A stretch of DNA of 64,000 bases from Quadrisphaera setariae (lineage in GTDB: Bacteria; Actinomycetota; Actinomycetes; Actinomycetales; Quadrisphaeraceae): NCBI RefSeq assembly GCF_008041935.1, contig NZ_VKAC01000010.1, positions 124,001-188,000 on the forward strand, given 5' to 3'. A program made the translations under genes and the position numbers. The number at the start of each line of letters is the position of its first letter. Within the stretch, counting starts at the first letter, position 1. Under the pieces are notes generated by a model. It had not been told where the DNA came from. It ran no database searches and saw only the letters and a list, made by a program, of their open reading frames with translations. Positions 1,182 through 30,456 of the stretch are shown here, piece after piece.

Positions 1182-2663
1182 GTGCCGACCGACCGCGCGG
1201 GGCTGCTCGCCTGGGCCCAGCGCTGGGCCGTGAGCGCCGCCGCCGTCGAGGCCGTGCTCGAGCGGGTCGACTCCGGCCCCGCCGTACCGCCTTTCTCGGG
1301 CCTGCCCGACCAGGTGCGCCGCGAGCTCGTCCGGCTGCCGCTGGCAGCCCTGTCCCAGCTGCGGGAGGTCACCGACACCACCCCCGCGGTGCACCGCGCC
1401 GCCGCCCTGGCCCCGGTGCCCGGACGGGCCCCCGCCGCCGCGTGGTCGGTGCTGGACGCCGTCGACCAGGCCGTCTGCGTGGCCGACGTCCGCGCCCCCG
1501 ACTCCCCGATCGTCTACGTCAACCCCGCGTTCACGCGCACCACGGGGTACTCCGAGGCGGACGTGCTCGGGCGCAACTGCCGGTTCCTGCACGACGGCCT
1601 GCTGGAGCCGTCCGCGGACGGCGAGCTCGACGCGCTCGGCACCAGCTCCGGCGAGGTCGCGGCCGCCGTGCAGCGCATCCGCGAGGTCCTGGCCGCGGGG
1701 GAGGCCGGCGTGGTGGTGCTGGCCAACCGCCGCGCCGACGGCCAGCTCTTCGTCAACGAGCTCTCGCTCTCCCCGGTCAACGGTGCTGACGGCGCCCCGG
1801 TGCACTACGTGGCCGTCCAGCGCGACATGACGCCCTACGCCGCGGTGCGCCGCGCCAGGGCGGCGCTCGCCGACGAGCTCGACCAGACCGCCCGCGCCGT
1901 GCAGGCCAGCCTCGTCCCCTCCTCCCTCCCGGACCTGCCGGGCTGGCGCGTGGCCACCGGCTACCAGCCCGCCACCAGCCCCGACGGCCGTCGGGGCGCG
2001 GTCAGCGGTGACTTCTTCGACGTCTTCGCCGGCCCCGCTGGCTCCGGCGGGTCCTGGTACGTGGTCATCGGCGACGTCTCCGGGCGCGGGCCCCGCGCGG
2101 CCGCCAGCACGAGCGCCCTGCGATGGGCGCTGCGCGGCGCCGCGACCACCCACGGCGAGCCGTCCGACCTGCTCACGGCGGTCGGTGGAGCGGTGCACGA
2201 GGCGCTCGACGACAGGTTCGCCACCGTGGCCGCCGTCGCCCTGCCCGTCGAGGAGCGGGCCACCTCGAGCGGTGGGCGCGCCGTCGTCACCCTGGCGCTG
2301 GCGGGCCACCCGCAGCCGGTGCTCCTGCCGGCCCGCGGCACCCCCCGCCTGGTCGGCAGCCCCGGCACGCTGCTCGGCCCCTTCGCCGAGGTGGAGGTGG
2401 CCCAGGTGGAGGTGGAGCTGGACCCCGGAGACCAGCTGGTCCTCTACACCGACGGCGTCACCGAGGCCACCGACCCCCGCGGCCGGCAGCTCGACGAGCA
2501 GGGGCTGCTGGAGCTCCTCGCCGGCCTGGGCGAGGAGGCCCGGCTCGCTCCCGACGCCGCCCAGCGCACCGTGACCGCCGTGACCGCCGCTGTCACGGAC
2601 CACGTGGCGGGCGGGCCCGTCGACGACCTCACGCTCCTCGTCGTCGCCCGCCCCGCCACCTGA
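1182..2663 (+). CDS. LOV photoreceptor domain fused to PP2C/SpoIIE-type phosphatase
   Basis: The 493-residue protein has an unassigned helical N-terminus (1-85), a LOV-type PAS domain (about 90-217), a short linker helix and a SpoIIE/PP2C phosphatase domain (about 240-490). The LOV core is intact: photoactive Cys133 in GRNCRF, and the flavin-contacting Asn182, Asn192 and Gln213. PP2C metal-site aspartates are present (GDFFD at 276-280, GDVSG at 297-301, and a late D before LTLLVV). The likely role is blue-light-controlled dephosphorylation of an anti-sigma-factor antagonist, inferred from the family. Between the Cys helix and the IRE helix the loop is about 17 residues longer than in plant phototropin LOV domains. 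The GTG start follows the upstream hairpin; the Shine-Dalgarno is weak. Confidence 0.9.
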   Translation: MPTDRAGLLAWAQRWAVSAAAVEAVLERVDSGPAVPPFSGLPDQVRRELVRLPLAALSQLREVTDTTPAVHRAAALAPVPGRAPAAAWSVLDAVDQAVCVADVRAPDSPIVYVNPAFTRTTGYSEADVLGRNCRFLHDGLLEPSADGELDALGTSSGEVAAAVQRIREVLAAGEAGVVVLANRRADGQLFVNELSLSPVNGADGAPVHYVAVQRDMTPYAAVRRARAALADELDQTARAVQASLVPSSLPDLPGWRVATGYQPATSPDGRRGAVSGDFFDVFAGPAGSGGSWYVVIGDVSGRGPRAAASTSALRWALRGAATTHGEPSDLLTAVGGAVHEALDDRFATVAAVALPVEERATSSGGRAVVTLALAGHPQPVLLPARGTPRLVGSPGTLLGPFAEVEVAQVEVELDPGDQLVLYTDGVTEATDPRGRQLDEQGLLELLAGLGEEARLAPDAAQRTVTAVTAAVTDHVAGGPVDDLTLLVVARPAT

Positions 2664-13624: not shown

Positions 13625-13720
13625 TCCTGCGCCCTTGGCGCCGGGGTCTGACCTGCCCACTAGATTGGGTGGCCGCCCGTCCAGACGCGCGGCGGGCGCA
13701 GCAGTACCAGGGGAGACAGG

Positions 13721-14431
13721 ATGTCGGTCGACGTCGCCTACGCCGAGCTGGGGAGGATCCTCCTCGACCGCACGCCGTTGAACGCCGTCCTCCAGCGGGT
13801 GGCGGAGCTGGCCCGCGACTGCGTGCCCGGGGCCGACGAGGCGTCGGTGACCCTCGTGCAGGGACGGCGTGCCACGTCGGTGGCCTTCACCGGCAACCTC
13901 GCCGTCCAGCTGGACGAGCGCCAGTACGAGCTGGGCTTCGGGCCCTGCATGGACGCCGCGATGTCGGGCCAGACCATCACGATCAGCAACACCGCCGAGG
14001 GCGACCGGGCCTACCCGGGGTTCTCCGAGGTGGCCGCACGCGCCGGCGTGCGGGCCACGCTGTCCGTGGGCCTGGCGGTGCCCGGCCGCACCGTGGGGGC
14101 GCTGAACCTCTACGACACCCACGGCCAGAGCGTCCTCACCGCGCAGTCGCAGGAGGTCGCCACGGTCTTCGCCGGCCACGCGGCCATCGCCCTGACCAAC
14201 GCCCTCGCGGTGGAGAGCACCCGCGAGCTGGCCGAGCAGCTGCAGCGGGCGATGGCCTCGCGAGCGGTCATCGAGCAGGCCAAGGGCATCATCGCGGTGC
14301 AGCGGGGGGTCTCCCCCGAGCAGGCGTTCGCCCTGCTGTCGCGCCGCTCGCAGGACTCCAACCGCAAGCTGGCCGAGCTGGCCGGCGAGGTGGTGGAGGC
14401 CGTCGCCCAGGGGCGCGACACCGGCTGGTGA
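13721..14431 (+). CDS. GAF-ANTAR domain RNA-binding regulator
   Basis: The 236-residue cytoplasmic protein combines a GAF sensory domain (about 15-165) with a C-terminal ANTAR domain (about 175-230; AVIEQAKGIIAVQRGVSPEQAF and aromatic/basic helices after it). ANTAR proteins bind paired hairpins in nascent mRNA and prevent termination, often after a signal reaches the sensory domain. GGGGAGAC precedes the ATG. It appears monocistronic: a hairpin lies upstream and a convergent gene downstream. A -10-like TAGATT lies at 13661-13666. The small molecule or redox signal of the GAF domain and the RNA targets are unknown. Confidence 0.9.
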   Translation: MSVDVAYAELGRILLDRTPLNAVLQRVAELARDCVPGADEASVTLVQGRRATSVAFTGNLAVQLDERQYELGFGPCMDAAMSGQTITISNTAEGDRAYPGFSEVAARAGVRATLSVGLAVPGRTVGALNLYDTHGQSVLTAQSQEVATVFAGHAAIALTNALAVESTRELAEQLQRAMASRAVIEQAKGIIAVQRGVSPEQAFALLSRRSQDSNRKLAELAGEVVEAVAQGRDTGW

Positions 14432-27133: not shown

Positions 27134-27604
27134 ATGTCCTCTGCCCCTGCTTCACCGGTGGTCGACCTCGACGTGTGGCGCGAGCGCGCACGCGTCGTCC
27201 GCGGCGCCGAGGCCCCGGCTGCCGCGGCGCCCGAAGAGGTGGCCCCCGCCGCTGCGAGCGGTGGCACCGGTTCTGTGCTCCGCATGCCCTCACCTGCGGG
27301 CCCCGGTCCTCTGAGCGTCTTCGGCCCCGTGATGGCCTTCGGCCTGGTGCGTCGCCCGGCCCCGGCCGGCGGGCTGCCCGTCCGCCCGCGCGCGGTGCAC
27401 GCGCCGCAGCTGGAGGCGCTGAGCGCCGACGGTGCCAGCGCTGACGGTGGCCCCGACGCCGCGAGACAGCCGGCCCCCGCCGGGCCGCCTGCTCTGCGCC
27501 TGCTGCCCGCCCTGTCCAGCGAGCACGGCACCACGTCCGCGCCGATGCCGCGGCTGCGCGCCGTGCTCGACAGCCGCGGCACCCCCCGGGGTCCCCGCCG
27601 CTGA
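27134..27604 (+). CDS. Hypothetical Ala/Pro-rich protein
   Basis: A 156-residue soluble protein of unknown function. It opens with an amphipathic acidic/basic stretch (VVDLDVWRERARVVRG, residues 8-23), then Ala/Pro-rich sequence, a short hydrophobic core (LSVFGPVMAFGLVRRP, about 65-80) and a Pro/Ala tail with basic end. ATG 27134 is preceded by GGAGCCAGGA; an in-frame start at 27065 lacks such a site. Codon third positions are strongly G/C, arguing that it is real. It stands alone between two hairpins, with unusual tandem repeats in its leader. No family recognised. Confidence 0.6.
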   Translation: MSSAPASPVVDLDVWRERARVVRGAEAPAAAAPEEVAPAAASGGTGSVLRMPSPAGPGPLSVFGPVMAFGLVRRPAPAGGLPVRPRAVHAPQLEALSADGASADGGPDAARQPAPAGPPALRLLPALSSEHGTTSAPMPRLRAVLDSRGTPRGPRR

Positions 27605-27629
27605 GACCACCACCACCGACCCACCCGCA

Positions 27630-27658
27630 CGACCCAGCTCGACCCAGCTCGACCCAGC
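27630..27658. repeat. Tandem CGACCCAGCT repeat
   Basis: Nearly three head-to-tail copies of a 10-base unit lie just after the hypothetical gene and before its terminator hairpin. No function is evident. Confidence 0.5.
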
Positions 27659-27668
27659 ACCGCGCAGC

Positions 27669-27699
27669 AGGCCGGGCCCCGGACACCGGGGTCCGGCCT
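27669..27699 (+). terminator. Hairpin after orphan gene
   Basis: A 14-bp stem (27669-27682 and 27686-27699, one G-T wobble) and a 3-base loop lie 64 bases after the stop of the hypothetical gene. Confidence 0.68.
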
Positions 27700-27861
27700 G
27701 GCTGCGTCACGGCGGCGCATCTGGGCCCGGCGCTGCGCGGAGCGGCCCGCGTGCCCCAGACTGCTCCCAGGGTCCGGGCTCGCAGCGGCCGGACTCCGGA
27801 CGCTCCAGGACGGGGCGGCCTGGGGCACCGCGGTCGCGCGAGCCGACGAGCGGGAGGTCCT

Positions 27862-30456
27862 GTGGAAGGTGGTCGAGCCGCTGCCTGGGCCGAGCGCTCC
27901 GGCGAACCGGCCGTCGGCGAGGGCCCTGGCCCCGCCGCGAGCGCGGGTGGACGAGGCGGCGTCCTGCCGCCGCCCGGCACGACGGGGCTGGACCGTCTGG
28001 CGGACCTCGCGGCCCGGCTGGTCGGGGCGCCGTGGGCGCAGGTCTCCCTCGTGCACGACGACGTGCACGAGGTGGTGGCCTCCGCGGCGACGCCCACAGG
28101 CTTCGCGCCCCGGCGCGAGGACCGCGCGCAGGACACGCTGTGCGAGCTCGTCGTGCTCGACGACCGGGTCGTGGTGGTGGAGGACGCCGTCAGCGACCCC
28201 CGCACCGCCGAGCGCCCCGGGGTCCTCGCCGGGGTGGTGGGCGCCTACCTCGGCGTGCCGCTGGTCCACGAGGGCCGCACCAGCGGCGTGCTGTGCGCGT
28301 ACGGCCCGGAGCCGCGCCGCTGGGAGCAGCACCAGGTCGACGCGCTCGTGCACCTCGCCGCCAGCGCCGCCGCCGAGCTCGACCTGGAGCGCATCGCCCG
28401 CGACGTCGAGCGCAGCCGCCTGCGGGTCCAGCTCGCCGTGGACGCCGCCGGCGTGGGCAGCTGGGACTGGGACCTCGCCACGGGCGCCCTGGAGTGGGAC
28501 GACCGGCTGCTCGAGCTCTTCGGGGTTGACCGCGACTCCTTCGGCGGGACCATCGAGGCCTTCAGCTCCTACCTCCACGCCGACGACCGCGACCGCGTCT
28601 CGGCGGCGCTGCGCCACTCGATCGACACGTGCGGGGACTTCCACGCCGAGTACCGGGTGGTGCGCCCCTGCGGCGAGGTCCGGTGGGTCCAGGCGCGCGG
28701 CCGCACCCTGTGCGACCAGGAGGGCCGCGCCGTCCGCGTGGTCGGCGCCGCCTACGACACCACCGACGTCCACGAGGGCGAGGCCCGGGTGGCCCGGGTC
28801 CTGGAGAGCATGTCGGCGGCGTTCTACAGCCTCGACACGTCCTTCCGCTTCACCTACGTCAACGCCGAGGCCGAGCGCCTCCTCGGCCGGTCCCGCACCG
28901 AGCTGCTGGGCGGGTCGGTCTGGGAGCTGTTCCCCGGCACCGTGGACAGCGGGTTCGAGCGCCACTACCGGGGCGCGCTGGCCAGCGGGCAGCCCTCCTC
29001 CTTCGAGGAGCACTACCCGCCGCCCCTGGACGGCTGGTACGAGGTGCGCGTGTGGCCCGTGCCCGACGGGCTGTCCGTGTACTTCCTGGAGATCACCGAG
29101 CGCCGCCGCGCCCAGCAGCGCGCCGACGCGTCCGCCGCCCGCCTGGAGCTGCTCGCCCGCACCACCGAGCAGCTCACGGAGGTGCTCGACGGGCGCACCG
29201 CCGTCGCCCGGCTCGCGACGCTCGTGGTGCCCGCGCTCGCCGACTGGTCCGTGGTCTCGCTCCTGGAGGACGACGGCGGCCTGCGCGACGTCGGCTGGGC
29301 CCACCGCGACCCCGCCCGGCTCGGGCTGGTCGAGCGCTACGCCGACCGGCGCTCCCGCGGCCTGCGCGACAGCTCACCGCTGCTGCGCGCCCTGGCCACC
29401 GGTGAGGCGCAGCTGGTCCCCTCCGACGCCGTCACCGCGGTCCGGGAGGCGCTCGGGGACGAGGAGGCCCGGCACCTGGTCGGCGAGCTCGCGCCGGAGG
29501 CGCTCTGCGTGCTGCCCCTGACCGCCCACGGCCGCACGCTCGGAGCGCTGTCGCTGTTCTGGGGGAGCGAGCGCGGCGGACCCGGCGTCGACGACCTCGC
29601 CACGGCCCGCGAGGTCGCGTCGCGGGCGGGCACGGCGCTGGAGAACGCCCGCCTCTACGAGCGCCAGCGCGACCTCGCCGAGGAGCTGCAGCGCAGCCTG
29701 CTCACCGCGCCGCCAGAGCCGGACCACCTCGAGGTGGCGGTCCGCTACCTGCCGGCCGGCGTGGCCGCCCAGGTGGGCGGCGACTGGTACGACGCGTTCC
29801 TGCAGCCGGACGGCGCCACCGTCGTCGTCATCGGTGACGTGGTCGGGCACGACTCCGCGGCGGCGGCCGCCATGGGCCAGCTGCGCGGGCTGCTGCGCGG
29901 CATCGCCTACACCACGGGCGCGGGGCCCGCCGAGGTGCTGGAGCGCCTCGACGCCGCCATCCCCGGCCTGCTCATGTCCACCACGGCCACCGCGGCCGTG
30001 CTGCGCCTGGAGCAGGGTGGCTCCGAGCGCGCTGACCGGACGACGGCCCTGCGCTGGTCCAGCGCCGGCCACCCGCCGCCGTTCGTGCTGCACCCCGACG
30101 GCTCGGTGGTCGCCCTCGAGGTCGACGACCCCGACCTGCTGCTCGGCATCGACCCCTCGGTCGTGCGGCAGGAGCGGGTGGAGGTCGTCCGTCGCGGGTG
30201 CACGGTGCTCCTCTACTCCGACGGGCTGGTGGAGCGCCGGGGGCAGTCGCTCGACGTGGGGCTGGAGCGGCTGCGCCGGCTGCTCGCCGAGCGCGGCCAC
30301 CTGCCCCTGCAGGAGCTCTGCGACCAGCTGCTGAGCGAGCTCGTCAGCACCCGGCCGGAGGACGACGTCGCACTGGTCGCGGTGCGCCTGCACCCCGAGG
30401 ACCAGCCGCGACCCGCCGAGGCCGGCCCCCGCGTGGTCCCGCCCGGGCTCGGCTGA
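27862..30456 (+). CDS. Multi-sensor SpoIIE-type PP2C phosphatase (GAF-PAS-PAS-GAF-PP2C)
   Basis: The 864-residue cytoplasmic protein has GAF (about 42-180), PAS (about 195-305; SWDWDLATGALEWDDRLLELFG), a second PAS (about 310-420), GAF (about 435-605) and a PP2C/SpoIIE phosphatase (about 620-850). Phosphatase metal ligands are present (GGDWYDAF, GDVVGHD, PEDDVALVAV). Such proteins dephosphorylate anti-sigma-antagonist proteins in response to small molecules or redox state. GTG 27862 is chosen because GGGAGG lies four bases upstream; the frame extends further but without recognisable sequence. The SigF-like gene 1.8 kb downstream is a possible beneficiary. Unlike the phosphatase at 1.2 kb, neither PAS has the LOV cysteine motif. 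Confidence 0.9.
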   Translation: MEGGRAAAWAERSGEPAVGEGPGPAASAGGRGGVLPPPGTTGLDRLADLAARLVGAPWAQVSLVHDDVHEVVASAATPTGFAPRREDRAQDTLCELVVLDDRVVVVEDAVSDPRTAERPGVLAGVVGAYLGVPLVHEGRTSGVLCAYGPEPRRWEQHQVDALVHLAASAAAELDLERIARDVERSRLRVQLAVDAAGVGSWDWDLATGALEWDDRLLELFGVDRDSFGGTIEAFSSYLHADDRDRVSAALRHSIDTCGDFHAEYRVVRPCGEVRWVQARGRTLCDQEGRAVRVVGAAYDTTDVHEGEARVARVLESMSAAFYSLDTSFRFTYVNAEAERLLGRSRTELLGGSVWELFPGTVDSGFERHYRGALASGQPSSFEEHYPPPLDGWYEVRVWPVPDGLSVYFLEITERRRAQQRADASAARLELLARTTEQLTEVLDGRTAVARLATLVVPALADWSVVSLLEDDGGLRDVGWAHRDPARLGLVERYADRRSRGLRDSSPLLRALATGEAQLVPSDAVTAVREALGDEEARHLVGELAPEALCVLPLTAHGRTLGALSLFWGSERGGPGVDDLATAREVASRAGTALENARLYERQRDLAEELQRSLLTAPPEPDHLEVAVRYLPAGVAAQVGGDWYDAFLQPDGATVVVIGDVVGHDSAAAAAMGQLRGLLRGIAYTTGAGPAEVLERLDAAIPGLLMSTTATAAVLRLEQGGSERADRTTALRWSSAGHPPPFVLHPDGSVVALEVDDPDLLLGIDPSVVRQERVEVVRRGCTVLLYSDGLVERRGQSLDVGLERLRRLLAERGHLPLQELCDQLLSELVSTRPEDDVALVAVRLHPEDQPRPAEAGPRVVPPGLG

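Follow-up and report, generated by a model that had tools for sequence, protein, structure and literature searches.

Does an unusually long loop on the flavin side of a bacterial LOV domain imply that the protein uses FAD? The question is raised by a gene of Quadrisphaera setariae that lies in the window (the whole stretch of DNA that was analysed, 64,000 nucleotides). Its open reading frame (1182-2663, + strand) starts with GTG and encodes a LOV-SpoIIE/PP2C protein of 493 residues. The reading favoured here, which is reasonably probable, is that of an RsbU/RsbP-like phosphatase located in the cytoplasm and serving as a blue-light receptor, which would bind FMN and carry a genus-specific acidic insert gained once.

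The gene and its LOV domain

LOV-SpoIIE proteins as such were previously known (PMC4844311). In the present protein, Pfam identifies SpoIIE (PF07228) at residues 289-490 (E = 1.3e-35) and PAS_9 at residues 104-217 (E = 7.4e-16), and the closest solved chains to the 493 residues are LOV photoreceptors. The closest named relatives of the gene are found in Streptomyces sp. NP160 (84%) and Quadrisphaera granulorum DSM 44889 (80%); the five other congener orthologs show 69-90% identity, and the whole protein has no relative among viral contigs. Three further LOV proteins are encoded in the host genome (4.9 Mb). Two are larger LOV-PP2C proteins, both of which have the canonical loop of 11 residues; the third is a LOV-GGDEF protein, and its reading frame contains an EAL domain as well. 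The gene and its upstream neighborhood contain the following features.

1182-2663, + strand: gene of the LOV-PP2C (SpoIIE-type) phosphatase, 493 aa; five congener orthologs have the same start region
1100-1146, no strand assigned: perfect 20-bp inverted repeat with a 7-nt loop (fold z = -5.5)

The gene upstream codes for a chemotaxis receptor; the 20-bp hairpin separates the two, so the LOV gene probably forms a transcription unit by itself. The repeat occurs once in the genome, has no exact copy in the five congeners, and is a probable terminator of the chemotaxis gene, lacking a T-run. Scanning the surroundings of the LOV gene for Rfam families, sigma-70 promoters, and terminators gave no hit.

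The sensor domain and two of its residues are located as follows.

1443-1835, + strand: LOV domain, aa 88-218 (PAS_9 match; the model is nearest to bacterial LOVs)
1578-1580, + strand: Cys133, the adduct cysteine of NCRFL, a motif that begins at aa 132
1590-1592, + strand: His137, replacing the Gln of GxNCRFLQ in the alignments, in six of six congeners

Among solved structures, the AlphaFold2 model of the LOV part is best matched in VIA-align by MrLOVe (9vf7; Z 19.5, rmsd 1.5 Å over 134 residues). The core fold and the flavin-contacting residues are shared with bacterial LOVs (MrLOVe, Brucella LOV-HK, RsLOV), from which the Quadrisphaera protein differs by 17 additional residues between helices E and F and by a His for the Gln of NCRFLQ. 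Among the flavin-contacting residues, N182 opens NRRADG, N192 lies in FVNEL, and Q213 in VAVQRD. The first-pass annotation, made from the sequence of the window, had described a LOV-PP2C phosphatase with the blue-light photochemical residues Cys133, Asn182, Asn192, and Gln213. All four are present and exactly numbered, and both the sequence and the predicted fold agree with the description.

The context of the adduct cysteine is GRNCRFLH, to be compared with the quoted LOV motif GxNCRFLQ (PMC4428443), and in the sister genera the motif ends in Gln, not His. This replacement, together with the occurrence of Cys-less LOV-like paralogs in a related genus, could suggest that the domain has lost light sensing and now serves as a redox or structural PAS module. 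Yet none of the six congeners has lost Cys133, either Asn, or Gln213, and ten further family members retain the Cys, which makes such a loss of light sensing highly improbable.

Length, distribution, and rarity of the E-F insert

The spacing between NCRFL and RIR is 28 residues, versus 11 in canonical LOV domains, and hence there is an insert of 17 residues. The earlier estimate of about 29 residues instead of about 11 was thus correct to within one residue. On the same ruler, the count is 11 residues for a canonical LOV encoded in the same genome, 22 for VVD, and 20 for ZTL. Other parts of the protein that bear on the insert are given with it.

1602-1652, + strand: E-F insert, aa 141-157, 17 aa, acidic, without Lys or Arg (six congeners, mean pairwise identity 0.66)
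1608-1631, + strand: predicted extra helix in the insert, aa 143-150 (AlphaFold2, block pLDDT 91-96, two runs)
1647-1697, + strand: helix F, aa 156-172, with its N-terminus predicted to be lengthened by the insert (AlphaFold2, both runs, local pLDDT >90)
1182-1436, + strand: N-terminal helical extension, aa 1-85 (strong matches in the six congeners only)

Each of the six species sampled in the genus, Q. granulorum among them, has the 28-residue loop. Among other members of the family, the loop has 11 residues in a sister genus (g2) and 16 in the family g17, where one member has 21 (for one g17 member, L021, the length of 16 is taken from the alignment). The LOV-PP2C proteins of g2 and g17, which belong to the same order, have the same LOV-linker-PP2C arrangement and are 51-59% identical to the Quadrisphaera protein, but they differ from it in these loops, and nothing in them strongly matches the N-terminal extension. 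In a maximum likelihood tree built after dropping the insert columns, every loop class forms a single clade, and the 28-residue class has 100/100 support. The 17-residue insert therefore fits a single gain in the Quadrisphaera lineage. An assembly or frameshift artefact is ruled out, since the same 28-residue loop is present in six genomes that form one clade.

To assess how rare such loops are, a canonical LOV profile was run on samples drawn from the phylum (396 genomes), the order (396), and the class (296), about 1,090 genomes in total with a slight overlap of the samples. The length of an insert was taken as the span of the match relative to that of the profile; rows were judged by eye and the largest were recomputed. 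Outside the family, matches of at least 100 bits carry at most 3 additional residues, so that at this threshold the survey lends no support to the idea that long-loop LOVs are widespread in the phylum. The profile is biased toward canonical loops, and the survey thus gives a lower bound on diversity; the window's own LOV domain surfaced as two split pieces. The loop comparison across relatives, which the first-pass annotation had proposed as a check, shows the long insert to be rare, not common, in the bacterial LOVs surveyed. Two weaker matches with 12 additional residues were rejected as long-loop LOVs, as they correspond to LOV-like PAS domains that lack the Cys and carry their additional residues beyond helix F. 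In the related genus, L080 and L081 contain LOV-like PAS domains that have 'GRELLFWTGPDTD' or 'GRDLLFWTGPDTD' replacing GRNCRFLQG, lack the adduct Cys, and have 12 extra residues located after helix F.

Could the insert be the product of near-neutral drift in length, at a corner that tolerates it, and be devoid of a function of its own? Loop lengths of 11, 16, 21, and 28 do coexist within one family, and among the six congeners the core of the insert is less conserved (identity 0.66) than the LOV core (0.86-0.89). Drift is nevertheless possible rather than likely: the loop has exactly 28 residues in all six species, its acidic and predicted helical character is maintained, and its identity has not collapsed, the N-terminal extension having a similar value (0.67). 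Close relatives with loops of 11, 16, 21, and 28 residues constitute a natural, clade-restricted test of the LOV E-F corner, since one protein family allows the choice of flavin, the lifetime of the adduct, and the coupling to the phosphatase to be compared directly.

Flavin choice and role of the insert

The full protein was modelled by AlphaFold2 from 31 alignment rows (mean pLDDT 89) and the LOV part alone from 14 (mean pLDDT 93). According to these models, the insert would be an extra helix plus an extended helix F, not an open loop; in both alignments four rows only carry the insert, and the helix prediction rests on those. Going by sequence order, the AlphaFold2 models being flavin-free, the insert would lie at the E-F corner, close to the phosphate of the flavin.

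The first-pass annotation had proceeded from the long loop to FAD use, on the example of fungal VVD and WC-1. The insert would then form a similar adenosine pocket and the protein would natively use FAD. Two observations are in favor of such a pocket. The insert lies at the same location as the VVD loop and is longer (28 versus 22 residues), and in the same lineage the Gln of the motif has become His137, at a position that we take to be the ribityl/phosphate end of the LOV flavin site, suggesting a change at that end.

The comparison with VVD itself is less favorable. There, the extended loop holds the adenosine of FAD, and a loop lysine is placed on the pyrophosphate and is thought to increase affinity (PMC3836802). 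The Quadrisphaera loop is helical by prediction, and between residues 137 and 161 the six orthologs have no Lys or Arg and a net charge of -4 to -6, versus +2 for VVD and +3 for ZTL on the same comparison. Hence, among the features of FAD-type LOVs, the extended E-F loop is present and the basic residue for the pyrophosphate is missing. Since there is no Lys or Arg, the net charge is negative, and the VVD lysine has no counterpart, loop charge points away from FAD. A second comparison is provided by the LOV domains of plant ZEITLUPE/ADAGIO, which have an insert of 9 residues at the same position: ZTL structures contain FMN despite it (PMC5370183), with a basic loop and with output domains other than the present one. 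Because ZTL binds FMN with an insert at the same place, neither where an insert lies nor how long it is suffices to predict FAD, and caution is required in that FAD should not be inferred from a long E-F insert by itself. Phototropin-like LOVs have comparable affinity for riboflavin, FMN, and FAD (PMC3836802), and such promiscuity leaves FAD a small probability here. In the literature searched, composed largely of papers outside subscription, no bacterial LOV was found that combines a long loop with bound FAD. In conclusion, the argument from loop length to FAD is not sustained, given the lack of Lys and Arg, the precedent of ZTL, and the predicted helix; a VVD/WC-1-like pocket is quite improbable, and the bound flavin is probably FMN.

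Rather than holding an adenine ring, the insert would more probably shield the tail of the flavin, tune the lifetime of the adduct, or offer a surface to the N-terminal extension or to a partner. Within the sampled family, the insert and the N-terminal extension are both confined to the genus Quadrisphaera, and the strong matches to the extension come from those species that also carry the insert. The extension (85 aa) corresponds to no family in Pfam or PHROGs, and outside the genus it has only weak matches (18-25 bits), judged to be due to chance. AlphaFold2 places helices in it at residues 5-14, 19-30, 43-50, and 54-64 (block pLDDT 49-91). One might speculate that the insert, as an acidic helix lying over the phosphate of the flavin, provides a second exit for the signal or an intramolecular lid, and so couples the flavin tail with the N-terminal extension, an idea that we regard as unlikely.

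PP2C output and proposed signalling

The C-terminal half of the protein contains the linker and the phosphatase.

1830-1913, + strand: putative signalling helix/coiled-coil linker from LOV to PP2C, aa 217-244 (AlphaFold2; mechanism by analogy with RsbU/RsbP)
1926-2651, + strand: PP2C/SpoIIE domain, aa 249-490, with Asp277, Asp298, Asp424, and Asp481/482

The aspartates lie in SGDFFD, GDVSGRG, TDG, and DDLTLL, and are presumably metal-binding residues, as in PPM enzymes. The PP2C model resembles the RsbU domain of Rv1364c (3ke6; Z 25.4 in VIA-align), with which it shares the PP2C fold, and SiaA (6k4e; Z 25.2). AlphaFold2 predicts one continuous helix (217-244) between LOV and PP2C. The order of sensor, helical linker, and SpoIIE-type PP2C is that of the RsbU/RsbP-type PPM (PP2C) phosphatases, in which, for RsbU and its relatives, a coiled-coil linker carries the sensor signal and dimerises the phosphatase domains, a mechanism proposed to be general (PMC12143880). 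The present protein differs from these in that its sensor is a LOV domain with an adduct Cys and in its genus-specific N-terminal extension. Moreover, no rsbV/rsbW, STAS, or anti-sigma gene was identified beside it in the window.

By analogy with this RsbU-type linker mechanism (PMC12143880), light may act through the linker helix. Blue light would produce the Cys133-flavin adduct, adduct formation would flip Gln213, and this change would travel, in a dimer, along the long linker helix (217-244) and switch the PP2C domain. The switch would in turn alter the dephosphorylation of a serine-phosphorylated STAS anti-anti-sigma partner; that the substrate is such an RsbV-like protein is a guess, and signalling by a dimer through the linker is suggested by the same analogy. 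In two deeper congeners, a gene for a PAS-GAF-SpoIIE-HATPase_c_2 protein is found directly downstream of the LOV-PP2C gene, on the same strand.

L085, 2504-5377, - strand: PAS-GAF-SpoIIE-HATPase_c_2 gene
L086, 8245-11115, + strand: PAS-GAF-SpoIIE-HATPase_c_2 gene

Its presence in these two genomes fits a partner-switching output. The gene is missing downstream of LOV-PP2C in the species of the window, and no close ortholog of it is found in the other four congeners (best hit 49%, partial). LOV-PP2C proteins are potential optogenetic phosphatases.

Elsewhere in the window, positions 27445-30453 code for a second SpoIIE-type phosphatase, with GAF and PAS domains, and positions 13664-14428 for a GAF-ANTAR protein, a candidate RNA-binding antiterminator.
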